Below are positions 22,501-60,500 of a stretch of DNA of 64,000 nt, in pieces. The notes beneath the pieces are model-generated. The model saw nothing but the letters and a program-made list of their open reading frames with translations, was not told the origin of the DNA and searched no databases. Numbering within the stretch: the first letter of the stretch is position 1; every line of letters starts with the position of its first letter. The stretch spans positions 52,930,404 through 52,994,403 of the forward strand of contig JAVGWX010000013.1 of the NCBI GenBank assembly GCA_036924085.1. Direction: 5' to 3'. This DNA comes from Ariolimax columbianus. Its lineage: Eukaryota; Mollusca; Gastropoda; Stylommatophora; Arionidae. A program made the translations under genes and the position numbers.

Positions 22501-25500
22501 GCAAGACAATAAGTAAAGGATATCCACCAGCAAATAATGGCATCTGTGACAGCCAAAGGAATGCTGGCCACAAGTAGTTTCACTGACTGGTCAGCTCTAC
22601 CCTGAAATGACATGGTCAGTATAATAAGTAAACTGAACAATACACCCATTACTATTTAATGTTGCTGACATACATCACAATGCTCCCTTTAAAGTATAAG
22701 GCAATGCCACATCATGCATGGTTTCTACCTCTCATCTTAGGTTAGCCCTAATCTTAGGGACGATAAGGCTAACGTCTGGTCAGGCAAAACACACTGATCA
22801 GAGAATGTTAGCCAGGGTCAGGAGAAATATACTGGCCAAGACCCTCACCTGATCTCCTCGTTGGTTGTCCTTGAAACGGGCTGTTGTCGAGGACAACAGT
22901 TTGGCTAACAAGGTGAGGTTCGATGTGATCTCCGTAGTAGTGAGCGACACGCAGATGAGGCCAAGCATAGCACAACCGCCTGGAGGATCCCTGTCAACCT
23001 TCATCAGCATGCTCAGGATGTGAGGAAAGCTACTGCAACCTGTCACTTAACGCCCTTTTCAGGGTGCACATAAGAGTAACCTACTCATTGTGGGCATTCG
23101 AAACAATAACCCCTTATCTTAAACTGGAAGTAAGTATCATGTTCTCTGTCATGGACAATAATAGCAGACTCACCCAAACTACTTGTTATATACAGATCAT
23201 CAGAATCACTTTAGAAATGTCAGTAATATTATATATTTTTGGTTACGCAAAAGTCTTCTCAAAATATTTATTGACATGGCTGATTTTTAAAAATAGTCCG
23301 TAAGAGAGATCACATCAAATTATACAAAATGATAAACGTACCGACAATGCCCTTGAGCAACTTTCAATTGATGCCAGAATGAAAAATACAACCCCAACAA
23401 ACAGCACTTTGCGAAATGTTTGGCCAAGCCTCGGTCTGCAATATACATAAGATCTTTCAATATCAATAGCAAATATTAATTAGTTAATGTATTTGCTTAT
23501 TGGCCACCTATAAGTGCTCAAGTCGACAAATTCTGAAATTTATCTAAGTGTTCCAAATAGATTTTCATATCTGTAACTCCCAGTCAATCGGCACATTATA
23601 TTGTTAACATTAATGTTTTCTAATTATCTGACTATGATCATATTGAACATATTGATAAAACTGTAATAGTATTACAGGACAGAATAGAAGTCCTCAGGGA
23701 GCAAAGAGTTTTACACCACCTAACATTCCCATTTAGTCTCCTGGAAACAAGCGGTGTCACAGCAGTCTGGCCAATGAGGTGGGAATTGACAATGTAGTCC
23801 CCAAAGCCTACTGAGAAGCCATTGCATTACAACCAGGAGTAAAAGTTAACTAAGCACGAGAATCTCCAAACAACATCAGCAGAGGTCCATAACCAGTGGA
23901 GAACTTTCTCAGTAAAGAAATGTTGGGTTTCAAGTGGAGAATTATGCTTCAGTTTAGTCATTAAGTAATAAATTACACATTTTGTGGGTTAATTTTACAA
24001 CTTTTGTTCAAGTTTAAAAATCCATCAACATTTTATATTGCTATTCAATTTAGTAAATGACTAAAAATAATCCAAGTAAATGTGTATTATAAATAATTAC
24101 AGATTTTCAATATTATATGCATCTTATTTGGAATGCACTTTTTGGGTCAGAAAGTCTTGGGAAGGGGGAATAACATTCTGACATATGGTGAAAAGGATGA
24201 ATAGACCAAAACAGGTAAGAAGACCCCTGGAATAGTCTTGATTCTTATGTGTATATGTTCACTATAAAAATGTGTGAGAATTCAAAGTTTACATACTTGA
24301 CAATACCATAACCGAGGCTCACAATAAGGACCAACATCCTGGCTAGGGTTCTCTTCAAGCATGAGACTAACTCAGCAACAATGATGGCACCTCGGACAGA
24401 CTGGCCTGTATTGTTAACATTCTCATATTCACCAAAGAACACCGCCTTCTCCAGCATACCTGAGCATGAAGTAAAGAACAAATTTTTTAGTAGATCCTTA
24501 CTAAGTTTATCTGTTTGCCTTATATGTACTGAGAACAGTGGGGAAATGTCAGAGAAAGACATCTCTTATAGTCCGTCTTTTAATTCATGAAGAAGGTCCG
24601 AAGCAATTTTCTACTAAACTGCATGTCAGATCCAAATTATTTTTCGCATGCGGCCTTAGAATATCACTGACGCTAAAACATACAGAATTATTTCAATATT
24701 ATTTAGTCCAAAGATGTTAAGACATTTGTACACAGCGAATTCCTTTGATAGTTTAGAACCATTGCAAAGAAATGGCATTAAATTTAAGATTTTACAGTAC
24801 GCAGCTTAATTTCTGGTTACATTTTGTTCATAGATGTATTTCTAGTCTTGATAGATCAATTGATTGTTTGTGTTGCCTTTTACGTACAATCATAAAAATA
24901 ACACCAATATGGAACAGTTAGTATAGCACTTCAGTCACCATTAGACCCCAAGGTTGTATTAACTACGCAGCTAATTTTATGTTGTTTAAATAATATAATA
25001 ATAATGTTCGCGCAGGCGTCAAAGGCCGTTGCGTCGATTGACCACTACCATGTCCAACTGTTGAGGCTATGTCCATGCGCAGAGTATTAACCAAAATGTC
25101 TACAGACTCCCCAGGTGGAGACGTGTACTCCACAGCCTTGGGATGAGGGCCGCAAGGAGTGTGTAAAACCAATGTTTGTGTCAAGCTTTCCGTGTCTGTC
25201 CGTGTCAAACTCCCTGTTTCCACATGTTCCCCCGCCGAGGCTTCTGACTGAGTCCACCTGTTTGTCAGCGTGATCCTTGCTGTGCTGAGAATACAAGGTT
25301 GGGAGAGGTATCATGTAACCTCTGGTGGAGGGAGGGGCTTGCAGGAGGAAGTCGGCTTCAATCCGAGCAGAAATGTCCTTGAGTAGTGATAATCTAGACT
25401 GAATTCTGGTGTGCAGTTAAGCGGAATGTTGAACTCCGTCATGGACGGGTTTCCCAGCTTAAGACAGGCATGAAATGCAACATAACAAACAGGATAACCA

Positions 25501-28500
25501 ATCAAAAGCACACCAAATCCACAGAATAAAGTCCCTGATACCACCTGGTGAAGGAGTTGTGAAATATAATCTGGACAGGAACCATCAAACACCGGAAAAC
25601 TCGACACAAACACCGGAGAGTCGAGAGCGCAGCCACTAAGGCACGGTCATCTTACTTTTTAGCTTAAAGCGATTGAATATTAAAATGTATTTGTTGTCAT
25701 CGTATGTACACTTAATTGTTTTAATAAACATACGCTAATTCATCCAAGTCTGCCACAAAAGATGATATTAATAATTCTGAATCTGTAGATTAAAAGGGGT
25801 TGATAATTGTTACTGGATGGAAAATTTGTAATTCATCTCGTTGCCAGTACTGTTTTTCTTCCTGGAACACATGTTCAATACACTTCTTCCAGAACTGAAT
25901 GTCTATTTTTGAAAGGTACTCACGTGTCAGCACTTCAACATCACATATTTTAAATGTCCTGTTCTGTTTGGCAGCTTGTGCTTTGACTTTAGCCCACATA
26001 AGCTCTATATGGTTTAGATGTGCATGATATGCAGGTAGTCGCAGAGAAGTGTGCCCGTACTCTTTAATGATATTGTCAATATGATACATCTTTGTCTTAT
26101 ATGTCTTCCTCACAAGCTACAACAACCTGGGTTTCAACTACGTGTTGTTGAAATACACTTTTTCTTTAGCTAACCATGTCCTAATTTAAGCTTTTGTATT
26201 TGATGCAGTTGGTACTTTGTCTTCCTCTGATACTGCATTGTGATAGAATGTATTATCCATTACTAAGCATGATGGTCTATCCAGAATTGGAAGCAGATCA
26301 TTCGTCATCGAGTGCCTGAAAAATTTTTCATTCATTTCGTGGTAGTCTCAGTACTTTTTGAATTGAAAATAAGTTCAGCGTCATGGACAAGTCCTTTTTC
26401 ATTGCTTCCGGCATACGTTAGTATAATGCACTGCCCTTTGCTGCTTGGAGTTTGTCTTTTCTATTCACCGTCAACTGATTTAAATTCTTTTTTTCTTTTT
26501 TTTTTGTGTTCGTCTTATTTCTCTATTCCAAGACGTATATCTATAACTTCAGGAGAATGACATATTGGCGATACCTTTCTCCTTGCAAGAACTAAATGAT
26601 GCAATACATTAAATGAAAAACAACAAAGCCGCTGGCCCAGATGACTTGAGGACAGAGCAAATTAAAAACTTTGGACCAGAAACCATCACATGGCTGCTAA
26701 AGCTTTTCAACACATGCATCGGTTCTATGCAAATTCCTAAAATCTGGAGAAAATCCCATGTAGTTGCTCTGCTAAAACCAGGAAAAACCCCATCAGAACC
26801 TAAGAACTTCCAACCGATTTCACTACTGTGCTATCTGTATAAAGTCTTTGAAAGAATGATCCTCAACCATATCGCACCCCTCATAGACAAGAAATTATAA
26901 AGGAGCAAGCAGGATTCAGGCCTGGAAGATCATGTTGCGGCCAGATTCTTAACCTGGCACAACTAATTGAGGACGGATACAAACGTAAACAGATCACAGG
27001 AGTAACTTTTATTGACTTAAGCGCAGCTTATGACACCATAAACCACCAGAAGCTGTTTGCTAAGCATGACAAAGGACTGGCGTCTTACAAACCTCATTAA
27101 TTTAAATGTATCCTGCAGAATAGGCAATTCTACGTCACTTTGGGGGGTAAAAAATAAAGTTCAACAGTAATATTGTGAGGGTAATTGCAAACCTTTATGA
27201 GCAGGCGACAAGCGCTCTGTAGAGGGAACGCTAGGCGATTGGTTCCGCACGACGGTGAGTGTAAGCCAAGGTTGCATACTCTCCCTAACACTCTTCAATA
27301 TATTCTTGGAGAGAATAATGGAGACGACCTTAAAAGGACATGTTGGCATGGTTAAAATAGGTGACAGGCTTATCACAAACTTCCGATTTGCAGATGATAT
27401 TGATGTATTGGCAGGCACAGAAAAGAAACTCCAGGAGTTGATTGGTAGATTGCATAGAGCGGCCCTGAGTTTTGGTATGGATATAAATGCAGATAAAACA
27501 AAGCTCATGACTAAGAACATAGAGCGGTTTAAATCTGTAATCGAGGCAAATGGGCAGGAGCTTGAGGTGGTACAACATTTCAAATATCTGGGATCATTGA
27601 TCAGTAAAGAGGGATCGCAGCCAGAGGTAATTGCAAGAATAGCACAAACAACAGCAGCGCTTACTCGGCTGAAACCTATATGGCAAGACAAGCGGCTCGC
27701 CCTCTGCATAAAAGTTAGACTAATGCGCTCTCTGGTGATCTCAATATTTATGTATGCCTTCAAGACCTGGACCATTACAGCAGATATCCAGGGCAGAATA
27801 CATGCAATGGAAATGAGGTGCTATAGAAAACTCCTAAATGTTACATATAAAGATCTTGTCACGAACGTAGAAATCCGACAGAGAGTTGAAAACACTATTG
27901 ACCCTTTTGAAGATATGTTCACAACAATCAAAAGACGAAAGATGGCATGGTGCGGGCACATCGTGAGGTCCAACGGAATTACCAACTCGATACTCTTTGG
28001 TTCCGTACCGGGACAGAAGGCGAGGACGTCCAAAGAAGAGGTGGGTGAACAACATCACTGAGTGGTCAAGCCTTCGCCCCAATGAGATACAACAGGCGGC
28101 GGCAGACAGAGCAAAATGGCGTGGGATTTTGGGAGTGTCTTCAAGTGTGCCTAACGACCTCATGGATTACGGGATGAACTGAACTGAACGATCAAATGAT
28201 GAAGCCGAAGTTAAGAATTAAACCATTCGATATTGCTATTTTATAAATTTACACACCAACTCAAAAACACAGTGATGAAGAAATAGAAGAGCATTATGTG
28301 AACTTACAACAGATCCATAAAACCAATCAAATCTACTGATGGTAATAGGAGATATGAACTCCAAATTAGCAAAAAAGCATATATTATAATATAATAGGGT
28401 AATTTGTACTGAAAAAATGAAATGATAGCAGGTTGGCTGATACATTTTGAAAAGAGAACCATGACATCAGAGTAAGATATTTTGGTTACATAAAAGAACA

Positions 28501-31500
28501 TAACTCCTTTGCTGAAAACAATGCTGGAAGACAATGAGGAGGGCAAATGTGCCAGAGGCAAACAACGCTATAAGTTGGAGGATAACATAAAAAAACAGAC
28601 AGGGAAGAGTCTTGCAGATTGTACCATCTAAGCAAGAGACAAAGGATTTTGAGATCAATTGCAGCCAACCTACGTAGGAGGCATGGCACCTGAAAAGAAC
28701 TGACCAGCCAACCTTCCTTGTGGAGGTGACACCTAAACTGAACTGATCAGTCGACCTTCACTGTGGGGATGGCACCTGAACTGAACTGATCAGTCGACCT
28801 TCACTGTGGGGATGGCACCTGAACTGAACTGATCAGCCAACCTTCGCTGTGGAGATGGCCTCCAAACTGAACTGATTTAAGTTTCTATATTGCCTGACCT
28901 GAGGTGTAGGTAAAAATGTACCATAGTAGATACTGCCATTTGGGATGAAGTGTTAGAAATGTCCTTGTACTGGGTCTCTGCATTTTTTAGGTAGGGTAAA
29001 TCAGTTCACTTTTTTGCTGTCTTGCCTTTCCTAATTGTAAGTCAGGCACCTATTTACTGAAGGGCAGACAGAGGTGTATCTAGGCAGTGAATGAAACCCT
29101 GTACATTTGCCATGGGAAGCAAATGCTCTAACCAGTCTGCTACTCAGACACTCATAAACGAATTATAACAAAGAAGAAAAACTATATATCAGCTAGTTTC
29201 ATTCATCTATAAGAGATATCAGTGAGACAACAGTATTTAACTAGGAACACATGGTGAGTGAATAAAGTAATATTTTTAGACAACACACAGCAAACTAGTA
29301 TGTTATGTAGCACAAGGGTCAATGATGGTTTAAAGCATGACAAATTCAATCATCATTTTCATCAACTTCCATTACACCAGTAGACACTTTAAAGGCACAA
29401 GCAAAAACTCTACAACCAACAGATTCCTTTTCACTCTATCCAAATCCAGTAATAGACCTTTCTCTGTCTAACATTTGCATTTCTTGAATATTAAAATTAA
29501 CTTTGAATGTCAAGAGAGAAGTTGGGAAAAGGCTTTCGTTTCAGTTTTGACTCAGTATATCATAATGATAACTGTGTGAGATTTGTCTTATTCTGTATTT
29601 CTATAGCTGATAGTTATTGTTACAGTATTTGGAGCTTCATGTCAGACCATTCATAGTAGACTTCTACAACAGGTATGTCAATAAACAGATGATCTTATTC
29701 TGTGCATTGCTGATATGCATAGGAAAGATCACAGAATGTTGTATATTTTAAACTGCTAGTGAGATTTGTACAATAAATTGGTGAAAATGTCTGTCTTCAC
29801 ACTAGTAAAGAATATGTGAACTAATCATTCATGTCAGACTATAAAGAATTGACAAACTAATCACTAATTTCAGACTACAAAGAATTGACAAACTAATCAT
29901 TCATATCAGACTATAAAGAACTGACAAACCAATCAATCATGTCAGACTATAAAGAATTGACAAACCAATCAATCATGTCAGACTATAAAGAAATGACAAA
30001 CTAATCAATCATGTCACACTATAAAGAAATGACAAACCAATCAATCATGTCAGACTATTAAGAATTGACAAAATAATCAATCACGCCTGACTATAAAGAA
30101 CTGACAAACTAATCATTCATGTCAGACTACAAAGAATTGACAAATCATTAATGTCAGATCTCATTTAAAAGATATGTTTAAAGATGTAGATAATGAAAGA
30201 TGCAACCTGATTTGATCAGAAACACAACACACAATGTAATTTTTAAAGTAAAGCATGATAAACAAAATAACTGTCATGCCACATTGAATGCATATACACT
30301 TTATGCTAAATCACTATCTTTATTCTCATACATTGACATTTTACTGATTGCTGCATAAATTTAAAGTCATAAAACACCTACCAAGAAATATAACAGCTCC
30401 AATCCAAAATTGTACTCTCAGCAAATCTCGCCAATTGCAGGCCAACATCACCAGCCAAAATAGGCCAAATAATATATAAACAAGACCCATGACACCATAG
30501 AACTGGGGAAAGCAAATTATGATTTTGTATAAAGACACTCTCAAGTTATTTTAATCAACGAGAATTATGTTCAAGATGGTGGTGGATTCGAATTGACAGT
30601 ACAGAGATCTATATAGAATCAATTTGTGTAAAAATAATGTAGTTGTAATTGTAGTTTACTGTAGCATACTTATTTTCAAATAAAGTGGTCTGGTTGTAAC
30701 AAATAGTTAGTGACTTGAAAGAATTAAATAGCATGGTATAGTGAGCGGTAGTAACAGTCTGTAGTACTAGTTAGTGTACTGTATAAATTTAGTGCAGGCC
30801 TAATATTTAGCGATAGTTGTTGTAAGGTAAATACCAACGACATTTGATTTTTTCGTGTTGTTATAACAAGTATACATTGTATTAGGTATTAGTATAACTT
30901 ATTCGCTAACGGTAATAAATAGCATAATTAGTATGGCTGCTAAGACCAGGCGAAATGTGACGAAGAAAGGTCAGGACAGATTGTGTGATTTGTGTGGCAG
31001 AAATGTTTGTATTAGTGTAGGGATAGATACAACGTTTGAAGATGAAGTAAAATTTATATGTAGGATATGTAGAGTAGAAGAGAGGCGAGCTCGAATGGAG
31101 TGCGATATCATGACAAATGAGAAGAGATTGGAGGAGATAGAAAAGAGGCAGATCAAAATAGGAAAACAAGAGAAAATTGAGGAAGTTTTAAAGAAGCTTC
31201 AGTTGGGTAGTCGAGGTGATAAAATAAAACCACTATCAGTTAGGTATGGGTTGGAGAAGGAAATAAGAAATAGAAGTAAGTGGGATTCTAGTGAGAAAAC
31301 AGTACACACGGCAGAGTGCTTTGCAGAGAAGTATGGTATGCAAATATAGGTGAGGGTACAGTGTTGGTAGTAGAGGATTCAATGGTGAGGGAGGTAGGCA
31401 GTAAAATGTTTGAAAAAATGGATATTGGGGGAACAAAAATTGAGGACAAAAAGGGGAGAATAAAGAGGATAGATGACAGAGCAAACAGTCATGTTGTGGT

Positions 31501-37500: not shown

Positions 37501-40500
37501 CCCAGTTCGAGGCATATGCTGATAAGTTCATCCCCATTGCTATTGCTGTTTGGTGTATCTAAAAGACTATGCACCTAAAATGTATAAACAAGATGTTTAG
37601 ATTTTAAAGTGCCAGAAATAATTTTATAAAAAAAACCTAATTGAACTCACAATCAGTAACGGCCATTCCACAGCTGAGAGGTAGCTGTTTCCATAACTCA
37701 TTTTGACTGTTACTGTGGACACAAAATGTTAGGTATCACAGTATCTTATTTTATTATCTGTAAAACTTGCTTAAATCTAAATGTTGAAAGTAGAAAAATA
37801 GTATGCAGGGGAACAAATACTTACATCTAGGAAATGAATCATCCATGAAATGATGTGATAAGGCTACCATACTTCATAAGTACATCAATTTGTTCCAACT
37901 ATAGCAATCCACTGTAAGTTATTTTACATGGACAAGACTAAACTCTGAATAATTGTGTTATATACTTTATTAATCCTAACCAGAAAAAGAAAGCCAATTG
38001 TTGTTCATTTCTATAAGAAATACTGCAAATCCTTGGCACTAGAAAAAAAGGAGAAAACAGTTTGGTGGAATGAGTGTCAAAAAGGCTGTAAATATTCTAA
38101 AAATATTACGTGATATGAAATGTATAATTGCATAAAGATTTTTGGTAAAAGTGTGTTAGGTTTTTACCATAATACTTCAATTATTCTTTTTTTGTTTTCT
38201 AAACCTCAACAGGAGAGTGGTTTAGAAGGCAACAAAAAAATAATATAAGTATTATGGTTGTTGTTGAATGCACACAATGAGTACGATTACTCTTTTGTGT
38301 GCCCTGGAAAGGTCATTGAGTGGCGAGTTGTCGTAGCTTTCCTGACATCCCGAGCGTGCTGATGAAGGTGGACTGGGGTTCTCCAGGCGGTTGTGCTTGG
38401 CGTGGCCTCATCTGTGCGTCGCTCACTACTACGGGGATCCCTCACTTTGTTAGCCAGGCTGCCATGAAATCAGCCCGTTTCCAAGGAGGGCTATGAGGAA
38501 GCCAAGTCTTGGGCAGTATATTTTGTCTGACCCTGACTAACTTGTCTGATCAGTATGTTTTGCCTGACCAACCAGATGTTAGTCTTCCTCCCCCAAGTCA
38601 TCATCATCATCATCTATCCAATTGTGTCATTAGATGCCGTGGGGAGGTGTAGTTTTCTGTTGTGTGCCAGCTTTGTCGCCAATGTTGTGGTCATTCTGTG
38701 TTTCTTCAGTGCCTCACTGACACCATCTATGCATCTTTTACGTAGTCTGTCTCTTGCTCTGCAACCCTGATGTCTGGTATTGTAGATACGAGCAGCTGGT
38801 AACTTTTGTTGCATTCTTGTTAGGTGTCCGAATCATTTTATTCTCTGCCCATGTATTCCATGCACGTTGTTGCACGGTGTCTGTCTGATTATTTCGTTTC
38901 TCAATCTGTCCAGCCTTGTGACCAGGACAGCCTTTCTCAAACACCTCATTTCATATACCATGATTTTTTTTTTCTTGTGCCTTAGTAAAAGTCCATGTCT
39001 GGCACTGGTAGCAGAGAGTTGGTATAAAAGTACTATTTATCAGATGTTTCTTTGTCTTTATTGGAATGTGTTTGTGTCTTAATAATGGTGAGAACTGATA
39101 GGAAACTGCATTAGCTTTCTGTGTTCTTGATTTCACCTCTATATCTAGCCTTCCATCTCGTGTGAACACGCTGCCCAAGTATTTGAATTCACTGACTTGT
39201 TTAAGCTCTGTACTTTTTATCTGTATATTTAGTGTTTTATCTATTCTACTGATTTTCATTGCCTCAGTCTTTACTGTACTAATCCTTATATTATATCTTT
39301 CACAGGCATTGTCAAGGGCATTCAGATGTTCTTGGAGGTTTTGTTCATCGGAATGAAAGCGATTTTGATTATCTGCAAAAAGCAGCTCATTCATTGTGAT
39401 TCATTCTGGTTTTGCTTCAGTTGCTATTTGATCCATTCATACAATGAACAAAAGTGGTGATAGTACACATCTCTGTCTTAACTACAAACCATGTAGTGAG
39501 TCCGCTTGGTGTTCTCCCCAAAGTATTATGGTAAAAACCTAACACTTTTTCCAAAAATATTAGAGAATTTTACAAGATCATTAACTGCATTTTCATTCCA
39601 CTCGTTAGGGAGGTAGTGACGAAAAATAACAATACAGGACTCTTTCGAGGCCCCGTAATTGGAATGAGTACACTTTAAACCCTTTAACATCTGGGGTAGT
39701 CTCTCGGTGGCTCGATTGACTCGCATCCAGTGTCCATACAGCGATCTCAGTCCCGCTTGACGAGAAGGGGTGAGAGCATGGCTTGCCTACCAAGCTCGCC
39801 CGCCTCACCCCGGCACTCTAGCAAGACCAATTTGGTGGAGTCGTACCGCTGGTAAAGGTGCGTTTCTGTAGTCCGTATCGAGAAGCTTTGTGAGTCCGTG
39901 TGGTTCGTCGAAGGCTAGCGCGTATAGCCAATCTCGACAGTTCGTCTCGCTTGAGGTCCTTCTCTCGCAATGAGCTTGGAACCGGCAAATGGAAAGCAGG
40001 AATCGTGCCTAAAGGCCCTATCCTCGCCCGACCAACCGGTCGGAGAAGGGCAGGCCAGCAGGCAAAAATCGTCTCCAGTCCGAGTGAAAATCATCGCCAG
40101 GGCTGTTGGGATCCGTTCTGCACAGAGCGCTGCCATCCCTCCCCGAGCGATCCCGGTCGGTTGGTTGGTGTGTGTACAGAGCCCCTGCCAGGCGGTCCTA
40201 GGTCGACGGAGTGAGGGACGGAACAACCGTCCGTCCGTCAGTCAGTCCCTGTGGCCGTCCTAGAGAGGATTTTTACACATCCATCCTTCGACGACCGGTG
40301 TGTGTGGTTCGTCCGTCTCTGACAGATATCTGATTGATCCTGCCAGTAGTCATATGCTTGTCTCAAAGATTAAGCCATGCATGTCTAAGTTCACACTGTC
40401 TCACCGCGAATGGCTCATTAAATCAGTCGAGATTCCTTAGATAACACGATCCTCATTGGAAAACTGTGGCAATTCTAGAGCTAATACATGCTTACCAAGC

Positions 40501-43500
40501 TCCAACCCTCGCGGAAAGAGTGCTTATATTAGTTCAAACCCAATCGTCGTTTCCCCTCGCGGGGTTGCGGCGTCCCTACTGGTGACTCTGGATAACTTTG
40601 TGCTGATCGCATGGCCTTATGTGCCGGCGACGCATCTTTCAAATGTCTGCCCTATCAAATGTCGATGGTACGTGACATGCCTACCATGTTTGTAACGGGT
40701 AACGGGAAATCAGGGTTCGATTCTGGATAGGGAGCATGAGAAACGGCTACCACATCCAAGGAAGGCAGCAGGCACGCAACTTACCCACTCCCGGCACGGG
40801 GAGGTAGTGACGAAAAATAACAATACAGGACTCTTTCGAGGCCCCGTAATTGGAATGAGTACACTTTAAACCCTTTAACAAGGATCTATTGGAGGGCAAG
40901 TCTGGTGCCAGAAGCCGCGGTAATTCCAGCTCCAATAGCGTATATTAAAGTTGTTGCAGTTAAAAAGCTCGTAGTTGGATCTCAGGCGCAGGCGGGCGGT
41001 CCGGCTCGCGCCGGTTCACTGCCCGTTGTCTCCTGCCCTACCGTCTGCCGGCTCTCTCCCACGGGTGCTCTTCGCTGAGCGTCCTGGGTGGCCGGCGCGT
41101 TTACTTTGAAAAAATTAGAGTGTTCAAAAGTCTAAATGCACACTTTGATGGGATAACAAACGAAATGCTGATGGGGCTGGGCCAAACAGCGAAGAGGAAA
41201 CTGCTATCGGTCCTGAACCAAAGCTGGAAAAGGGGAATTGTACCCCAGGCATGGAAAGACGCAGTACTTGTACCAGTACCAAAAAAAGGAAAGGACAAAA
41301 CAGATCCAAATGGATACAGGCCTATCAGCCTACTGAGCTGTGTCGGCAAACTGATGGAACGTATGATAAACACCAGACTTATGTGGCATCTGGAAGAAAA
41401 ACGAATACTAATTCCACAGCAAGCCGGCTTTAGACAGCACAGATCCACTGAGGACCAGGTCATCCTCATAGCCCAGGAAATAGAAGATGCCTACCAGGCA
41501 CAGAAACACACAGTAGCGGTTTGGGTAAACCTGGAAAAGGCATTTGACAAAGTCTGGAAAAATGGACTTAGAGTCAAGCTAAGAAGAAGTGATGTTTGTG
41601 GGAAAATGTACAAGTGGATCAACCACTACCTCAAAAACAGAACGGCCAGAGTCCAAGTACAAGGGCAGATGAGCAAAAAGGTGACACTCGAGCAGGGAGT
41701 ACCCCAAGGGGGAGTACTGTCACCCACACTCTTCCTGGTGTATATAAATGACATTACAGAGAATATACCAAGAAGAGTCCATAGCTCAATGTTTGCAGAC
41801 GATCTGGCTATGTGGACCTCTGAAAAGAATCTCACCATAGCAAAGAAATCGGATGCAGCAGGCCCTAACATCGCTGGAAGAGTGGGCAAACTCATGGCTG
41901 GTCAAAATAAACAATGAGAAAACCACATGCACAATATTCTCGCTTTCAATCAAACCCCAAAATACCAAATTAAGTTTAAATGGCAAATTCCTGCAGCCAA
42001 ACGACAACCCAAACTATCTGGGAGTCACATTTGATCGGCGCATGACATGGAAAAGTCAGATCGAGAGAAACCGAATGAGAGCCAGAGAAAGAATGGCAAT
42101 CATGAGGAAACTTGCTGGCACAAGCTGGGGAGCAGACGAAAGCATACTAAAGAAACTGTACACTGGAAGAGTGAGACCAGTTCTCGAGTATGGCATTGCG
42201 GCATGGACAACAGCAGCAAAGGCGAAATTCGATAAAGTTAGCAAACTTCAAAACCAAGCCATGAGAGTTATAACAGGAGGCATGAAGTCAACGCCAATTG
42301 TAGAACTTGAAAAGATTACAAATCTGCAATCCATGACCGACAGAAGAGACTGCAGAGCCCAGCAGCAAGCAGAGAAACTCAGAAGACTGACAGACAATTC
42401 AATGCATCAGAGACTAAATAGATTTGGAAATGGGAAACTAAAGCGGAGAAACTTTGCAGAAATAGCCAAAGCAAATATGAACGAAGACCTTATGAACGCA
42501 CTAACAACACCAAAGCCCATCCCTACTGTATGAAAACCTACCTGGAGGCAGCATATATTTCCAGAGGTGGTAGAAAACATACCAGGTATTGAAAACAAAA
42601 ACAGCCAGACTGAAAAAGAAAGAAGAGACATAACCCTGAGGTACATAACGAAAAACTACCCAAGCATGGACTGGACCCATGCATACACCGATGGCTCTGT
42701 AACAAACACAACACAGAACGGAGGGGCAGGGGTATTCCTGAGCCTACCAAATGGTAGAAAAATAACACTGTCAGTGGCAACTGGAAAATTCTCAAGCAAT
42801 TTCAGAGGAGAGGCAGAGGCACTGAGGGCTGCAGTATAAGCAATGCTGACAAGCGAAAGCAATGAAAGCCAGATAGTCCTGTTTACAGATGCCCTGGCTG
42901 TAGTCACAGCACTAAAAAGCCAGAACAATACTGAACTTAATGATTTAAGAGCAGTACTCTGTCAACTATGCCAGCAGTCCGCACCAAAAAGAGTAGTGGT
43001 ACAGTGGGTTCCATCCCACTGTAACATCCAAGGCAACGAGGAGGCAGACAGACTGGCAAAAGAAGGTACAAGACTACCACAACCAGATTCTAGTGTGACA
43101 TACGAAGAGTCCAAAAGGCTTATTAGGGCCAGATACATGGCCAAATGGGAAACAGAACATACTGGCTACACAAAAAATGATGCCTATTACCGGTTGAACA
43201 GAAGAGAGCAGGTCGTGGTCTTCAGACTTCGCACTGGCCACAATAGACTTAGGTACCACCTATTCAACAAATTGAAGATAGGTGGCACTGACGAATGCCC
43301 GTGTGGTACCGGGAAAATGACCGCTGAGCATTTGCTGCAAAACTGCCCGACATACGAGGACCAGAGAAAGCACATGTGGCCATCACCAGTGGCAACACTA
43401 GACAAGCTCTATGGCAGTGTCGACAGCCTCAGGATGGCCGCTGCTTTTTTCGAAAAAATACAGGTTGACGTTTGACAGCGTACGAAGAAGAAGAAGAAGT

Positions 43501-46500
43501 AGAAGATTCCACTCGTTATATCCCCATACATTTGTTGTCAAAATAGGAAATGTGCAATAAAGATATGAGAAAAATAATTGCCGACAAAATTAAACTAAGA
43601 GTTGAATGTTTCAATCCATCAACAATAATAAAAGATGGAAATGGCAATCCAATAATAAGCAATAACTTAAAAAGGATGAGATTTGAAGTATACTTCAAGC
43701 AAGTAATTAACTCTGCTGACGAATATGAAAACAGAAGATTCACCTCTATATAGTAAATTAAAAGAACTATCAATTACAGCAGCAGAAGTCAAGGAAATTA
43801 TCAAAACATTCACAAAACAAGGTACCAGGAGTCAACAGCATTACAATAGAAGCTGTGCAAGCATGTTGTGATATTGGAGTAAAGTGGTTGTCAAGAATAT
43901 TAATACAGCATGGACAGAACTAAATGTTCCTGAAAAATGGCAAACAACTATAGTCATTCCACGTGGATGCAAAACAAAAGAAATGAAAGACTTTTGAGAT
44001 CCTAGAAAAAAGGTCAAGGACCATAACGGAACCCCAGCTAAGTGATGCACAGTGTAGATTTAGAAAGAGCAGAGACTGCAAGGATGCTTTGTGTTACAAC
44101 AGATTTTTGTGAGCTAACTTTTGAAAAAAATGCGAAATGGATAATTGCCTTTATTTACCAGAAGACTTTTGATCAACTCAAAAGAAATAAATAATGGAGA
44201 ATTCTTTAAGATTACGGAGTACAAGGACAGCTTTTGGACAATAAATACGAATAGACAAGGCTCTGTGAAAGCAACATGTAGACTTACAAAAAGGTTTGAG
44301 ATTACTACTAGTGTATGACATGGATATGTACTATCACCCTTGTTATTCATAATATGGACAGGATATAACTTCTGAGGCACCCAAAGAATCGTCCACATTG
44401 AACAACATGATCCAAGTATCAAATATCAAGAGAAAAACGCTCGAGATGTGAGTAAAGCTACTGCAACTCACCACTTAATGTCTTTTTCAGGGTGTACAAA
44501 AGAGTAAACCTACTCATTGTGGGCATTCGAAATAACAACTAGGCCAGGGGGAAGATACAAATATTTTGGGTAGATTTTTAACTACAATTTTTGAATTTTG
44601 TCTAGGCAGCGGCCGTTAAGCCTACTCTTTTTTATTTCTAGCTGCCAAGGGATTTTCAACGTGTTCAACACTACCCAGAGATAAGGGAAATTTATACCAG
44701 AAGATCCATGTAAAAAATTCCCAGATTCAAATATCAGCAGGACTTCCGGGAATCGAGGCGGACAGCTTACCTCAAGACCACTGAGCCTCTCTCCAGGTGT
44801 TATCATTTAGTTTTAGTTCCTTCTCACGTTCTCTTTTCCATGTATTTTTGGGTTTACCTCTCCCTCTCTTCCCCAGAGAATAAATGCGATTGGAAAAGGA
44901 AGACTCAAGCAAAGCAGCTTTATGGTATCAGTGAAAGAAATGTTAAGAACAGATCCTATAAATGGCACGCCACAAATAAGACCCATGCACATTACACACA
45001 TGCTTCCCACCTGAAGAAAAATGTGCTTCCTAGAGCTGAAATTGGGGGGAAAAAAAAAAAGCAGCCAGACAAAAATACAAAGAAGAGTCCTAACTATAAA
45101 ACACATAGCAACTACCCAAGCAACATATATGTTTGAATCAGCATCAAATGCAACAAAGAACGGAGGTGTAGGGATCTTTCTAAGCCTAAAATACAGTATA
45201 AAAAATAGCTATCAGTGGCAACTGGAAAATTCTCAAGTAACCAGAGCAGAGACAGAAATTCTAATGACAGATGAAAACACAGAAAGACACGCGTTGTACT
45301 CTTCACAGACACCATGTCAGTGGTTGGCGCACTAGGGAGCCAGAATAATACAGACCTAAAGGAACTAAGAGTGATACTTTATAAACTATATCACCAGTTC
45401 AGGATTCCATTTCATTGCAATATCTTTCGCAATGAAGAGGCTGACAGACTGTCAAGAGAAAGTGGAAAGCTATCTCAACCTGATATAGGTATAACTTGTG
45501 AAGAGACCAAGTTGTTTACCAGATGTAGATACAGGAACAAGTGGGAAGTAAAACACACAGGTCATCAACCAAATGACGCATATTAACTCGGCTTCCTAGT
45601 AGCCCTCCCTGGAAACAGGCTGTTTTCATGGTAGCCTGGCTAACAAAGTGGGAGGGGGTCAAAGTGATCCCCACAGTAGTGAGTGGTATGCAGATGAAGC
45701 CAAGCATAGCACAACCACCTGGAGGACCCCGGTCCACCTTCATCCGCACGCTCGGGATGTGAGAAAAGCTTAACTTCCTTAACGTCCTATTCAGAGCGCA
45801 CAAATGAGTAACCTACTCATTGTAGGCATTAGCAAACAACAACATAAATTAAGAATTGGACATACAGATGAATGTGTCTGCAGCACTGACAAAATGTCTA
45901 CTGAACATCTGCTACAAAGGTGTCCAACATACGAGCAACAGAGAAAGCATGTGTGGCCATCACCAATGCCATTCCTGGACAAGCTCTATGGAGATAACCA
46001 CTTCTTTCTTTAGATATATTCAAGTTGACGTCTGAAGGCATACGAAGAAGAAGATGGTCATTTTAAACAAAATGCTAGAGAACAACTATGCAAAAATGTA
46101 TAATACACCAATAAACAGCTTTATCAGGAAACAAAATTGGGAGTGACACAGTGCAGAGTCAGACACTAAAATTTGGAATGGCAGTCCACAGATCAAGCAC
46201 TCAATAGGGAAAACAACACCAAAAAACTATACATGCTTTAATAATCTGTCCAGGCAAGTGAACAGGTCAACATGTGTAGCTATATCGTATAAACTGTATC
46301 AGTTGATATGATGAGAATAACAAAGTAACACTAACCACGCATTTTGAAATCCTTTTTCTCTGGGGGTTTATCTACAACAAACTGAAGGACAAAGAGATAG
46401 TAGCCATCTTCCCACACTCGAACTAATTTGCCATTCTGAAAAACAAAACAAAAACATCAGGTCTATACTATGCTAGAAAAATACATTTCAATTTAATACC

Positions 46501-49500: not shown

Positions 49501-52500
49501 AACAGACAAATGTGTAGTTAATCTTAAAAATTGTGCTACTCACAGGAGCTCCATAGCTTGCAAAATCTGGATCTTTATAAATGTATTGCTAAAATAGAAT
49601 AAAATATTGTCATTATAAAGTCCACAAATGATAGCCCTACAGGAAAGTAAGTTTCGTTTGTGTTTTTGTCTCTGTGCTGTATCTGACCATACCGATTTTT
49701 AAATTTTAATCAAATTCCATTTTAATTGACACAAAAAAAATGTTCATATGAAAATAAGAGTAAGTGAATTAGAAATTCTTAGAAATGATCTATACAAAGG
49801 AAGTATATGAGCTATGAACAACATGGATGAAACTGTTTTGCCCAGGATCTCAAACTATAAAATCTTTGAGTACCTATGTTAAAAAGAAATCTTAAAAAAA
49901 AACTGACACAACAAGAGTGACACAAATGCATGCACTTATAGGGATGTTATGAGAAACTGCTGCAGTACTAAAGGTCAAAAGCCTATAAAATTATACATAA
50001 GTATGACTCAGTTACAGCACCGTGACAGACACAAAATGAAACCAACATTACGGCCACAAGGACTTTGTCGAGGACACGGAACAAATGAAAACACCTAACA
50101 AATCACACAATAAACAAAAACAATGTATCAGTCCTATTAGCAAGAAAGTGGATGAGAATGTGTGAATCATTGTATACTACTTACACAGAGTAGGCCAAAC
50201 AAAAAATTATAATACAAGAACCAATTCTAACACATACCACTACACAAGCATATATATCAAGAAACATAAATACATATATACACATACATATATGCACATG
50301 TACATACAGACACATATATAAGGAAACAGCAATAGATGTATTAACATAATAATAAGAGGGAGATATAAATAAATACAAGTGAAAGAGTAAAGGGGGGAAA
50401 AACAGAGATCGAAAAAGAGGAATGTGCAGTGGAGCTTATGTAAATGTATGGATTGTATTCAAACCATGAGGTTTAAGGCTTCCTGTAAGGAAGCTTAACA
50501 ATTCTTGAAAAAAACCAGGAAGCCATCATCAGTGGTGCAGGAGACAATGATATTGATTTTACCATAGTGTCCAGGTATAATCAAATGGTTGGCGAATGGA
50601 GAGTCAAGAGTTATTCTAAATGTCATTGAGATGTTGGCAAGATGTATTTCGTATATATAACTTGTTTACCAGTGTAGCCCATCCTAAGTCACGGTACCAT
50701 TTAAATATTATATAACAGGTTTAACGTTACATCTATCCTAGGTGATGCTACTATTTACACGTATATATGACAGGTTTAACGTTACATCTATCCTAGGTGA
50801 TGCTACTATTTACACGTATATATGACAGGTTTAACGTTACATCTATCCTAGGTGATGCTACTATTTACACATATATATGACAGGGTTAACGTTATTGTAT
50901 CACTTTATTTACTAACTTGTTTCCTTACCACTATCACTCCTTAACTCACACTTTAATTAAACCACTAACAATTCTTTTAACAAAAGCAAACCAAAGAATG
51001 TTTATTTCACAAACATCATACACATCATATCAATAAACTAGGCTCGTAAATCGTATCATATTGTTCATAAATTATTAACTAATTTTAATCTCTCAAGAAT
51101 TTTGTTATCACACTACTCTAACTAACTATAATTACTGTCATTTTATATGCACGAGAAACTTGACATGGAGAAAGAATAATCAGCTAAATTGAGATTAACA
51201 TGAAGAGAACCAAGAATCAATCATGCTGGAGGGAGAGCAGAACAATTGACACGTGAAGATGAAGATATAAAGACCAGAACTGGAAAGGTAAGAATGGCAT
51301 TCCCGACACTAAACAGCATATGGTGATCCAGAGAAACCAAATTTAGAATATTCAATGTCACGTCAGTACTATTGAATGAAGCCAAAACATGAAGAACAAC
51401 AAAGGCAATACAACAAAGACGCCAGTTCTTTGTTAACAAATGCCTACGATGAATAATGAGGAATGAAGACCTGTGGAAAAGGAGCCAACAACAGTCACTG
51501 GAACAATAAAGAGGAGAAAATGGGGCTGGATAAGACATACACAGAGGAAGGTCCCGTCCAACATAGCCAGGCAGATTCACATGAAATCTTCAAGAGAAGA
51601 AAAATATGAGTAGACCTAAAATTACACAGAGAAGAGAGAGTGAGAGGGAACTGCAGTTAAATGGTCACACCTGGAGAGAGGCAGAAAGGGTAGCCGAGGA
51701 CTGTATTTGCTGGTGAGATGTGGTCAACGGCCAATACATCAACATCAACAGGAGTGATGGGCTTCGATGATGATTGACTTTACAAAATAATGTGTGTTGC
51801 TGCAAGATAAGGTACCATGGCGGTGAGATTTGAGTCGACTTCTGACCAACGTCAATCATGTTTCTTTCACATCTGTTGGTTACCAAAGGAGCACCAGGAA
51901 ATACCACATGCGTTGAAAAATCAAACTGAAAGATTGGGAGATGGCAGAACAAAATCTAATGGGCAGAGGAAGTATGAGGATGAAAAGTAAGAACCAGTTT
52001 GACATGGTGAGATAGAGGCTGGTGGGATGGGGGTGTGAGAGTAAGTACAAGAGATAAGGATTACACGCTTCAGGGTCGATATGCCTGTGGAAAAAGTCAA
52101 ACATGTCATAGGTTTTGTAGAATGTCTTCATCTTCCTGGCATTGGCAATGAAGGCACAGTAGCGGGGAAAATTGGAATGAGTCGTGACAAGATTGAGGGT
52201 GAGAAGTGTAAAGGAGATAGCCATGTATGTGTGTGGATTTATAATAAATGGTGGGCAGCTAGTGACATTGATGTAAAGAAAGTAGAATGATATAAGAGAA
52301 ATGATGAGATGTGAGGAATATTGTTGAATATAAATTGTTAACACAGTCTGTGAAGCTAGAGAGGTCAGCCTCAGACAAGTCAGTAATACTGATACAGTCA
52401 TCAATGTATCATTAGTACATCAGAGGAAAAGAACCCTGACAGTGAGATCAAATGGCCCATAAAATGACAAAGGTAGCTGGATCTTATCTTAGTGCTCATA

Positions 52501-55500
52501 TCTATTCCATGGATCTGGTCAAAGAAATAACCATCAAATTCAAAAGGTGTTGAAGGCAAGGTCAATGTTCAGCCAGATGGAGAATAGATGTAGCCATTAA
52601 TCCTCCTTTCAAGGTAGAGCTGGAGTGCTGTGGGACCATCAGAATGGGAAATAGAGGTAAAGAGAGAGCAAAGATTTCAAAGGAAGACGTGGTACCTCCA
52701 ATCTAAAGAAAAACAGTGGAAGGAACATTAACTAAGGCATGGTTTATGTCCCTAAGGAATTAGGTTAAATCCTCAACTACGGGCTGGAAGATGTTGTCTA
52801 GGTAGACGGGTATGTTTGAGATATGAAAATATGTGTGAGTGATAGGATGAAACATGTATTCTATAATAAAGGAATTAAAGCAAAATTTATAAATAATTTC
52901 AGAGACATCTCTGCAGTAAATGATCCCACTGACAATGCTGTTACAAAATTTTAAGTGTAGCACACAAAAAGTTACTGATTTTCTACACCCTGAAGAGTCA
53001 TTCTATGAAATATACAAGATCAAGGAAAATTGTATGCTTCATCCAACGACAATAAAGTAAGGAAGGGGGGATGATTCAATCTAAAAACAATTATAGCTCT
53101 AATAAATTAATATCGACAATCACTATAATACAAATTGAGAAGGCACTGTACATGGATCATTTCAGATAATCAAAGTCAGTTATACTAAATTATTAAATCA
53201 GTAACCCTAAATTCCATTGTGCACAGGCCAACATTAACATTATCCATTTCTGTAGTATGGTATTCTCTCCAGATGCAGTATGCTTGGGCCTACACCTCTA
53301 TAACTGCTGCTTCACTGTGTGTTTTCCTTCATCATCCTTTCTTCCTTTTTCTTTGTAGCCATTAGGCAATATTGTAACACTTTTCGCACAGAAACAATGG
53401 TCCTGCAATGGATAGCAGAATTCCTTACAAAATTCACATCACAGACAGAGAAATTGATGGTGATCTTCACTGATGTTCCCTTAGTGATAACCGCCACTGA
53501 AGAGTGAACAGTATGCTGCAGTTCAAAACTTGGGTACATTTGAATGTCTCACTCTGTGCTATCAGAAAAGCACAAATCATTGGATACCTGATCACTGTGG
53601 CATCTTGGGTAACAAGGAGACAGAAGGCTTGCCAGAAGCGAGGGTCTTTACAGAAAAGCAACATGTAGATAACATGTCACAAGGCCAAAACTAATATAAA
53701 AGCTGTCTTTAAATCAACAAGGCAGAAAAATCACCCATGTCATTTGAAAAATGACCTGTATGATCTGCTCTCTTAACAAGATAAAATGGACTGTTTTCAT
53801 GTTACACACTGGACACAAATAGACTGAGGTCCCATCTTTATAGAAAATTTGTGATTGGCACTTCGGATCTGTGCACATATGCCTGAACACTTGTTGCAGA
53901 TGTCCAATATGCACTGGTAAAAGGAGAGGCACTTGGCCGCACCCTGCATCACAGCATAAGGAGCTGTACAGCCGTGTCAGAAGCCCCGAGCTGATTGCTG
54001 CTTCATTAAGTCATTGAAATGGAACAAGGTAAAAGAATAAATTCTGAGAAAAACTATTATTATTTCTAACGTCAGCTGATAGATGCATTCAAAGGCATTG
54101 ATGTTGGAGTCAAAGTTTGCTATCACCTAGGTGATGAGTTCTTCAATCTGAGGAAATTGCAGGCAAGAATAAAAGTACAAATTGAGACCATATGTGAACT
54201 TATCTTTGCTAATGACTGCGTTCTCAATGTCAATTCAGAAACTGACATGCAATGTACTGTTGAGCTATTTGCAGCAGCTTGCAAGAACTATGGTCTCATC
54301 ATTTCTAAAAGTGGGAGTGAAGTGCTACACCAAGCAGCTCCAAGAACTAAGCACAATAAGCCATCTATCAATATCAATGGCAAGAAGTCGGCGAAACGAT
54401 TTGTATACCGTGGCAGCACATATTGATGATGAAGTAAACTCGAGAATTGCCAAAGCATGGAGAATAATTGGAAAACTAAGATCCTCAGTTTGGGACCAGA
54501 GAGGAATCAAGCTTACAGCCAAATTGAAGGTTTATGTGGCAGTTATCCTACCAACTCTTTTATACACTTTGTGAAACCTGGACTGTGTACAGTCGACATG
54601 CGAAGAAAAAGCTTGACCACTTCTATCTAGGCTGCCTAAAGAAACCCCTGAACATAAAATGGCAAGATAGGATAACAAGCATCCACAAAACTCTTAAATG
54701 GACTGGCCATGTCTGCACGTTAGATGAACTGTTTCCAAAGAAAATACTCCATGGCGAGCTTTAGTCAGTCAAGCGAGCTCTCTGTGGCCAAATAAAATGT
54801 TACAAAGACACTCTGAAAGCCTCAATGAAGAACTGCGACATTGACCTTGAAAACTGGGAGAACATAATTGCTGATTACTCTGCCTTACATAGTAAAATCT
54901 TTGTTGGCACGACGCATATTGAGCAGATAATAATCAAAGAAGCTGTACAGAGACATGCCATATGAAAAACAAGAGACAAATTGCCTCCATCTGACAGACA
55001 GTGTTTCTCTGCCATCAGTGGGACAGACATTTTTGGCTTCGGATTCTTTTGATCAGCCACCTCCGAAAACGATGGACAAACAACAAAGACACTGTTTGAA
55101 GATGTGGTTCTACTCTATCCATTGCTATTAACAGAGTAGGTTTGTTGTTGCTTTTAAAATTGGAACAACAAGTAAGTAGCATGTTCTTTGCAAAATATTT
55201 GACTGCTTTACGTTTCTTGGCAGGTGTGCAGTACGGTCGGTTGCCAATGCTTTCTTTATGCACCAAATAAACAACATGTGTCTGCCAAAGTGGACACAAT
55301 GAGATTCATACTCAGTGCATTTGGATTGTGAAAGAAACCTAAATATGGACCTTCTAACAGCAATTTAAGGAGCGGCTTACTAAGCTGGCTTTGCATCTGA
55401 GTGGTCCTGGGTTCATTCCCCAGTTGGGGGACGGCGTGGCCTAGTGGTTATGTGACACGGCTCACAACCATAAGGTGCTGGGTTCGATCCCCATCTCAGC

Positions 55501-57589: not shown

Positions 57590-60500
57590 TGGAGAGGGGG
57601 GATCTGCTGGCTGGACAACAGCGGTCCTCGCATCAATATGCTGAGGCAGGCACTAGAGAGGATTCACGTCAGAACCCATAGAAAAAACGCCTACAATGAG
57701 GCTTGGTTGCTTGAACTTACGCACCATGACCTCAATTATAGACCAGGAACTCAAAAGGCTTAGAGTCGACATCGTCACCCTCCAAGAAACGCATTTGGCC
57801 GATTCTGGGTATCTGATGGAAAAGGACTACACGTTGTTCTGGCAAGGGATATGAGTGGAGGACGTGTGAGAACATGGCGTTGGCTTTGCCATTAAAAACT
57901 CCCTTCTAGGATCAACAGAGATATGGCAAAAGGCACACAGCGGTTATTATCTCTTCGTCTTCAAACATCCAATGCCATAGTTAATCTGATCAGCGTGTAT
58001 GCTCCTACACTTGGCCCCACTAGTGACTCCAAGGATGAGTTCTATCAGCAGCTGACCTCACTCATCACAAGTATTCCTAGTGAGGAACACCTGATTCTAC
58101 TTGGGAACTTTAATGCAAGGGTGGGCGCCGATCACGACTCCAGGTATATGTGCATGGGAAAGTGCGGTGTCGAAAAGATGAATGAAAATGGACAGCGGCT
58201 ATTGGAGCTGTGTGCCTACGAGGACCTGTGCATCACTAACACCTTCTTCCAAACAAAGCGTCAACACAAAGTATTCTGGAGACATCGTCACTCCAGACAT
58301 AGGCATCAGCTGGACCTGATCATCACTAGACAGTCTGAACTGAAACATGTTTTGCAAACCCGCACATTTCACAGTGCACAATGCAATCCTGACCACTCAC
58401 TGGTCTGCTGCAAAATGAGACTCCAGCCCTAGAAGAGCCACCGCACAAGACCTGTGGGTAAATCCCGCAAAAACACAGGCGGAACTGATATTCCTGAAAG
58501 GGTGAAAGAATTCACAAAATCCCTCTCTGATAATGGCAAAACAGAGCACTATTGGAAACGCTACAGAAAGGTGGGAACACATCAGAGGGTCAATACACAC
58601 CCCAGCCTTGGCTGTCTTTGGAAAGAAGACAACAAGCAGAAATTACTGGTTTGAGGGTAGGTCTGCCATCCTTGCAACAGCCATTAAAAAGCGCTAATCT
58701 ACTCACCTGGAGTTTAAGATTTCCCAGAGCAGAGTACAGTACAGAGACTGGCAAGGAAATGTACAAATGATTACTGGCTTCAACTCTGTAAGTTCATACA
58801 GTCAGCATCGGATACTGGTAACATCAGGGCAATGTGCGAGGGCATAAAAAAAGTATTTGGACCAACAAAAGAGTCTACAGCACCTCTGAAATCTGTGACA
58901 GGTTAGATTATTCTGGACAGGGATATGCTAATGAAGTCTATTCAGTCTTATACACCTGTAATAATGTAGTGGCAGACTCTGCTCTCGAGATGGGCCGAAC
59001 ACTATTCAGCCTTGTACACCTGTAATAATGTAGTGGCAGACTCTGCTCTCGAGATGAGCCGAACACTATTCAGCCTTGTACACCTGTAATAATGTAGTGG
59101 CAGACTCTTCAATATCTGTATGAGCATATCTGCCAGTGTTGGGATGAGGGGGCAGTATCACAGGACATGAGAGACGCCAACATAATCACCCTTTACAAGA
59201 AAAAGGAAGACAAAGGAGACTGCAACCATTACAGAGGAATATCGCTCCTCAACACCATAGGCAAAGTGTATGCTCATGTCATCCTGAGTAGGCTGCGTAA
59301 GCTGGCCGACAGGGTGTATCCAGAGTCTCAGTGTGGTTTTCGCGCAGAGCGGTCCACCGTTGATATGGTCTTTTCACTGAGACAATTTTGAAGAGAAATG
59401 CTGAGAACAACACAGACCACTATTTCTTGCCTTCATTGACCTCACCAAGGCATTCGACCTGGTAAACAGAGAGGCTCTTTTCAAAGTATTGTCTAAAGGT
59501 GGCTGCCCAGCTAAACTACTGAGTATGATTAGGTCTTTCATGTGGGCATGAAATGTACAGTGCTGCATGATGGTCAGGAATCCGAGGCTTTCGACATTAA
59601 CTATGGAGTTAAACAAAGTTGTGTCCTGGCCCAACATTATTCTGCATTTTCTTTGCTATCGTTCTTAGACACGTCTTTGGAACTTCCACAGAGGGGGGTC
59701 TTTCCGCATGCTAGGTCAGATGGGAGACTTCAATCTAACTAGACTGCAAGCAAAAAGTAAGAGAAAGGAGACTGTCATTCAGGATATGCTCTTCGCAGAT
59801 GATGCTGCCCTGGTCATCCACACAAAAGTCGAATTACAGATCCTCATTAATAGGTTGGCAAATCCTGTTTGGACTCACCATCAGCGTAAAAAAGACGAAA
59901 GTGATAGCTCAGGGTCTAGATCCTCCAATTGTCTTAAATGATAAAAATCTGGAGATAGTAATTCACTTCAACTACCTCGGATATATCATTATCGACAACC
60001 TTTCACTGGACGCAGAGGTGCAGGAACAACTAGGAATGGCCTCACCAGCACTTGCCAGGCTCACATAGAGAGTGTGGAAAAACAATATGCTGACCATCTC
60101 CATAAAGGTTGCTGTGTACAGATCATGTGTGATTAGTACCGTGCTCTATGGCAACGAAACATGGACATGAAAAAATGCTAAATGCTTTTCATATACGCTG
60201 CCTGAGGCACATACTTGGAATTTCATGGAGTGACAGAGTGACTAACAACGTAGTATTGGACTGTGCAAAGATTGTCAGCCTAGTTATGCTCCTACGCCAG
60301 CGCCGCTTGTGTTGGCTTGATCACTTGTGCAGAATGGAGGATGGGCGAATACCAAAAGATATAATTTACGGAGAGCTGACCACGGTCAAGCGTAAAAAAG
60401 GTAGACGCTTCCTCCGCTACAAAGATGTTTGCAAGCGTGACCTGAAGGCGTTGGATACGAAAACCTGCAACTGGGAGGAACTTGCTAAAGACAGACCCGG

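Follow-up and report, generated by a model that had tools for sequence, protein, structure and literature searches.

A 64,000-nt stretch of Ariolimax columbianus DNA (contig JAVGWX010000013.1, positions 52,930,404 to 52,994,403; hereafter the window) carries, at 39608-43505, a hybrid of ribosomal RNA (rRNA) and long interspersed element (LINE) sequence. The hybrid is real, and it is the product of one insertion. It is probably an old, privately rearranged copy of a high-copy LINE family with a precursor rRNA (pre-rRNA) leader, shaped by template jumping onto pre-rRNA, with some of the jump products becoming successful.

The hybrid is flanked by two perfect 13-bp direct repeats, ATTCCACTCGTTA, with zero mismatches, on the + strand at 39595-39607, where the repeat adjoins an 18S piece, and at 43506-43518, directly after the tail GAAGAAGAAGAAGAAGTAGAAG. 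No third match to ATTCCACTCGTTA was found in the window, even at ≤2 mismatches. Shuffled sequences yield a mean of 1.13 loose (≤2 mismatches) matches by chance, and thus the weight rests on the exactness of ATTCCACTCGTTA and its flush position at both ends. The window's own flank pair also beats 306 of 306 randomly paired left and right flanks taken from 18 units. A sequence-only reading of this DNA had proposed a 13-bp target duplication around a composite whose rRNA and LINE parts entered as one unit, every part in sense orientation. All of this is borne out, the duplication being single and flush and the parts all lying on the + strand. One target duplication around RNA plus LINE is likewise a feature of single-event RNA/LINE chimeras.

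Between the duplications lie an extra 18S piece ahead of the leader start (39608-39688), a 5' external transcribed spacer (ETS) that opens with ATCTGGGG and extends up to the 18S start (39689-40326), and the 5' ~800 nt of 18S rRNA (40327-41128; model position 1 falls at 40327 by Rfam, the start at 40330 in another comparison). These are followed by an 18-nt filler, AGTCTAAATGCACACTTT (41129-41146, strand not assigned), the 3' part of a LINE open reading frame (ORF; 41147-43475) with reverse transcriptase (RT), RNase H and, by eye, a cysteine/histidine-rich end, and the LINE 3' end with its GAA tail (43476-43505). The order of 18S fragment, spacer, 18S and LINE is that given by the earlier reading, with two amendments. 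The first 18S fragment is a copy of a later 18S piece, 82 nt at 39608-39689 being identical to 40799-40880, although the final A of the repeat (39689) may be part of the leader start. In addition, the 18S 5' half meets the LINE across AGTCTAAATGCACACTTT, which is absent from the LINE sequence of nine other copies, matches an 18S stretch at 40382 at 14 of 18 positions, and may be another 18S scrap. The 18S part differs from the family consensus at 21 of 802 compared sites. In the LINE, a frameshift near 41845 and two stops, near 42533 and 42839, interrupt the frame. A description of the ETS as an anonymous spacer was rejected, as it adjoins 18S model position 1 and its genome copies start at one base.

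The ETS/18S part is, on the evidence of sequence, the 5' leader of a dispersed, high-copy LINE family. A search of the host genome (2.29 Gb) with 39595-40200 as query gave 3,100 first-look candidates, the best 40 of which were scored. The 39 scored places other than the window are 90-92% like the query, and 35 of them begin at query positions 90-96, within a 7-nt spread corresponding to ATCTGGGG; the remaining four begin at 80-86. This common 5' end makes ATCTGGGG probably the pre-rRNA start (+1). Twenty of the 39 loci were read, 10 kb each, and 17 hold a LINE body or tail: a body spanning the window's LINE part in eight (L009, L012, L014, L015, L018, L019, L025, L027), an internally shortened LINE in two (L017, L022), and a leader fused to the tail in seven, with one common joint in six (L010, L013, L020, L021, L024, L026) and a different joint in L016. 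That the chimera is singular is not supported, since an ETS and 18S leader with the same start is present on very many copies. The partner RNA is in this respect unlike that of a single-event chimera, being already part of the LINE in these 17 loci.

Of the 14 loci to which Rfam models were applied, 13 gave a match to 18S and 11 a match to the 3' part of 28S. In a consensus of 14 leaders, from which the window was left out, the ETS (1-636) is followed by 18S with its conserved motifs intact, which passes through the fusion GAGAGCACTTTCGTTGGGTC into 28S; the 28S continues to its last positions and is followed, after about 0.6 kb, by an apparent ORF start. The consensus 28S is degenerate, with a sarcin-ricin loop of AATCCGAGAGGAATCG versus AGUACGAGAGGAAC in the Rfam consensus. 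The 32-base 18S/28S fusion GAGAGCACTTTCGTTGGGTC has 2,843 + 2,932 = 5,775 genome matches at ≤3 mismatches (0 for a reversed-pattern control), which are places and not elements, because some elements hold the fusion twice. With the same fusion at so many places, the fused leader is therefore inherited.

Both ends were available for 18 leader-bearing units (16 of the 20 loci, the window, and L031 from a second search described below; L011, L020, L023 and L028 were left out, as they lack a right end), and a duplication was accepted with ≤1 mismatch and a left copy ending ≤3 nt from the unit start. By this rule 16 of the 18 units have target duplications, 13 of them scoring above all 306 mismatched control pairs, the best of which reached 9. 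The duplications of L012, L022 and L024 score 9, which one control pair also attained. The duplication of L031 is a perfect 13 bp; in the case of L014, the best match lies in repeated flank, with a 10-bp match directly at the tail. Apparent upstream 18S traces at the starts of L016 and L014 are in fact target duplications and were discarded as rRNA.

For the LINE itself, the window copy has a reverse transcriptase domain (RVT_1, E 3.1e-31) followed by RNase H (PF00075), for which the last piece scores above the cut-off (E 9.7e-8) and the preceding piece below it (E 1.2e-4). An APE-type endonuclease is absent from the window copy, whose 5' part is missing. The two nearest proteins (P0001 and P0002, 66-68% identity, 1282 aa) have endonuclease (PF03372/PF14529), RT and RNase H domains. 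Of the 120 entries listed, the LINE relatives that bear a name come from the snails Batillaria and Littorina, at 45-47% identity. In its RT, RNase H, target duplications and tail, the family fits the endonuclease-RT-RNase H LINEs (I superfamily), a level above the named clades I, Ingi and Nimb. Target duplications with a 3' repeat tail are seen in the window and in 15 of the 17 other units. The fixed insertion site in ribosomal DNA (rDNA) of an rDNA-targeted R element is not seen, the target duplications differing and the places being scattered. As a separate observation, L009 and L027 carry a second copy of the LINE 3' end (2078 onward) behind the first, at a similar point in both.

The leaders are of at least two types. 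Thirteen main copies (partial L010 and L020 left out) lie 4.0% in the ETS (327/8192) and 3.0% in 18S (313/10388) from their consensus in a star-like pattern, as predicted for neutral decay. A second type was seen in the two examples examined, both young: the second leader of L014 and that of L036, in which 18S is within 0.14-0.75% of the consensus and the ETS is 14-18% off. For L014 the counts are 109/618 in the ETS and 6/802 in 18S (Fisher p 2e-34), the ETS value being alignment-dependent (82/604 in an alternative alignment); for L036 they are 90/601 and 1/700 (Fisher p 7e-31). The two leaders also differ from each other mostly in the ETS (29/622, against 5/694 in 18S; Fisher p 5e-6). Neutral drift of one LINE-borne leader does not explain such low 18S and high ETS divergence, which points to sources under rRNA constraint in 18S and not in the ETS. 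The upstream partial leader of L014 is of the main type (ETS 27/626, 18S 14/552), and two different leaders have therefore been joined in one insertion. Leaders seem to have been taken repeatedly from working rDNA.

Tandem leader monomers are known in mouse L1, and such an arrangement was considered and rejected here, since the two leaders of L014 differ in ETS type and the upstream one was acquired separately. A further arrangement is an internal second leader start in L012, L021, L028, L014, L037 and L045, where the leader runs to its position 1956, is followed by its first ~50 nt (ATCTGGGG onward), and resumes at 1812; this is perhaps the fossil of an earlier 5' end.

Other pieces of rRNA meet the same LINE elsewhere. 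A search for the 5.8S family scored 40 places, of which 15 were read (L029-L031, L034-L045). The start of internal transcribed spacer 1 (ITS1), GGTACCTGAGCGTCC, is kept with ≤2 changes in 11 of these 15 loci and is probably a processing end; in 14 of the 15 the rRNA is joined either to the LINE leader or to its +1. Twelve different joins occur in the 13 non-duplicate ITS1-5.8S loci, one being common to L036 and L042. L031 has the leader/tail joint of the main non-autonomous form behind an ITS-type front, that is, the same backbone with different rRNA. L031 and L034, 86 kb apart on C4, are a segmental duplication: they have in common the ITS-type insertion, its left flank and a 96-bp minisatellite that precedes it. 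The pattern of the functional 28S loop occurs at 62 genome places, 20 of them exact (control, 0), and three were read (L046, L047, L048). L046 and L048 have genuine 28S joined to the LINE body, each at a point of its own. In L046 and L047 the LINE tail runs straight into a leader, a structure expected of end-to-end jumps.

A mechanism that would accommodate these products begins with the enzyme reaching, during target-primed reverse transcription, either the end of the LINE RNA or a homologous stretch, the homology being that of pre-rRNA to the 18S/28S pieces within the leader. The enzyme would jump to pre-rRNA or to another LINE RNA, and copying would run to a natural 5' end, either +1 or the ITS1 processing site. 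Some jump products would then have given rise to very many copies. For the window copy, the jump would have been from the RT region of the LINE to 18S nucleotide ~800, in leader-bearing LINE RNA or onto pre-rRNA, followed by a run to +1 and by 82 nt of a further 18S piece before integration ended.

The window's 18S/LINE joint with its filler has one genome match, itself, at ≤3 mismatches (control, 0). Such a private joint is a feature of single-event chimeras, and is what a jump in the copy's own history would be expected to leave. The template switching put forward in the earlier reading is supported in kind, with pre-rRNA involved. The internal 5'-to-3' fusion of the leader/tail form is heritable (6 of 20 loci, and L031), whereas that of the window is private. 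The leader is on many LINE copies, so the window copy may have drawn it from LINE RNA already bearing it, losing the middle. The window leader is 6.96% from five main copies, which differ among themselves by 7.0%, and 10.9% from the second leader of L014; for the LINE body, the closest sequences are a separate LINE in L013 (4.7%) and the body of L014 (6.8%). The histories of leader and body therefore seem to differ. With 51 of 1435 sites off the consensus, and 2.2-4.0% in other copies, the window copy is of roughly the same age as the main burst.

An alternative is that a 5'-broken LINE RNA switched directly to cellular pre-rRNA in a one-off event, without a leader-bearing LINE RNA. The private joint, the grouping of the body with L013/L014 under a leader unlike the second leader of L014, and the joining of genuine 28S to LINE bodies at other loci all speak for it. 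However, very many LINE copies already bear a leader of this type and of comparable age, and the enzyme could have used such an RNA as template. A direct switch is a possibility that we hold only tentatively.

A second alternative is that RNA polymerase I transcribes source LINEs together with the rDNA units in which they sit, the read-through RNAs from +1 being retrotransposed genome-wide. This would agree with main copies that begin at one +1-like base, with an 18S kept functional beside a drifting ETS, as in real rDNA, and with a single 18S/28S fusion at 5,775 places. On the other hand, the altered sarcin-ricin loop of the consensus 28S is unlike working rDNA, and the many different joins point to jumps. 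No rDNA array, with or without a LINE at GAGTGTTCAAA, was recognised in the assembly, the 40 scored 5.8S places and 62 28S-loop places being scattered over many contigs; a search of viral contigs and genome contigs with an 18S pattern gave 0 matches. We regard residence in rDNA as a less likely origin. Because rRNA repeats can mislead assemblers and the composite is improbable at first sight, nested insertions made separately, or an artefact of assembly, might be suspected. Both are scarcely credible in view of the single flush duplication, on which nesting was rejected, and of the many similarly built copies with duplications of their own.

Several observations weigh against a private copy made by template jumping. 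Template jumping is something we infer from its products. The pattern of the 82-nt/+1 joint CCCTTTAACATCTGGGGTAG has an exact match genome-wide in the window alone, with three further hits at two mismatches clustered within 500 bp on C9. L014 holds the same 18S/+1 joint with later differences, and both the window and L014 lack a C that the remaining 19 loci have at their starts. L036 also lacks this C, though no 18S precedes its start, and thus the missing C is not tied to the joint. A joint common to the window and L014 suggests descent, a hot spot or leader recombination in preference to a new jump. There is no difference between the two 82-nt copies although the 18S part is 2.6% off the consensus, making later gene conversion possible, and the 18S/LINE joint of the window could be a DNA deletion after insertion. 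Among the 20 loci read, L011, L023 and L028 have no LINE part in the unit, and among the 15 ITS-type loci read L041 has no leader beside its ITS block. No duplication was found at L018 and L019 by the rule used. The tail of L020 lies in an inverted part, and one LINE piece of L027 is likewise inverted; twin priming, through 5' inversion, would give such arrangements within one unit. Two CpG changes found in both 82-nt copies were considered as a sign of one mutated template; this was rejected, as one is also present in L011.

Beyond a private copy of a leader-bearing LINE family, a more general proposal is that the family lives off rRNA, repeatedly swapping its own 5' end for fresh pre-rRNA from working rDNA. 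Source copies in rDNA might use the rRNA promoter, or the 18S might help the RNA under selection (through nucleolar location, ribosome contact or RT recruitment). We regard this proposal as speculative, and rather improbable as it stands.

The surroundings of the insertion include a second, degenerate piece of related LINE 1.3 kb downstream in the same orientation (44853-46054; 34-72% amino-acid identity in pieces). More distant LINE RT or RNase H fragments lie at 6725-7530, 19264-20006, 26640-27040, 53497-54002, 59116-59385 and 63272-63730, and tandem arrays with units of about 36, 55 and 64 bp at 29819-30144, 50709-50894 and 58938-59108. The insertion had been placed in a TMEM87 intron. TMEM87-like exon matches, four strong and one weak, are present on the - strand at 13012-30502 (13.0-30.5 kb), and the insertion lies upstream of these, antisense to them, exons past 43.5 kb being outside the search.

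The family suggests that the capture of rRNA by LINEs, so far familiar from scattered accidents, can turn into a stable way of life, here giving a host-rRNA leader to thousands of places in one genome. Template jumping in vivo would become readable from many datable products, and rRNA capture could explain how a truncated LINE regains a 5' end. It is also a warning that, in a genome of this kind, matches to 18S, 5.8S and 28S can belong to mobile elements.

A LINE family with a heritable pre-rRNA leader was not found among the literature matches listed, which comprise titles and abstract starts and largely exclude subscription journals. The nearest known products are primate L1 chimeras with U6, U3, 5S, 28S, tRNA and other RNAs, attributed in the accessible text of PMC13174262 to template switching or RNA ligation. 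That text also describes 28S/L1 chimeras at 18 loci, mostly in sense, with 28S pieces of median 269 nt, and two nearly full-length L1 copies with a captured gene promoter. The statement in the sequence-only reading that a partner of this type was not known to be described therefore goes too far, as published work includes single chimeras of L1 with 28S and with other RNAs (PMC13174262). The primate 28S pieces are short and no family-inherited rRNA leader is described in the accessible portion of that paper, whereas here up to ~2.5 kb of rRNA is involved and the fusion is at thousands of places. What is alike is the position of the RNA, on the 5' side of the LINE within one target-primed insertion.

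End-to-end template jumping by R2 was reportedly demonstrated by Bibillo and Eickbush. Such jumping by R2 proteins is cited in the available parts of PMC11331408 and PMC3414825. As far as those parts go, the likeness is that LINE tails here abut other RNA parts and runs reach RNA 5' ends; the difference is that R2 is site-specific in 28S, whereas the target sites of the present family are scattered. R2 SIDEs, internally deleted non-autonomous elements in the excerpted text of PMC3414825, similarly have an element 5' part fused to the 3' end, comparable to the leader/tail joint seen in 6 of 20 loci and L031. Unlike those SIDEs, as that excerpt presents them, the 5' part here is rRNA and the copies are dispersed rather than in rDNA. 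SINEs (short interspersed elements) derived from 28S and 5S have an rRNA-derived head that is mobilised by LINE machinery. The 28S-derived SINEs are mentioned in the accessible text of PMC13174262. The rRNA-derived head is shared with the present family, but in this case it precedes a protein-coding LINE and consists of pre-rRNA, ETS included.

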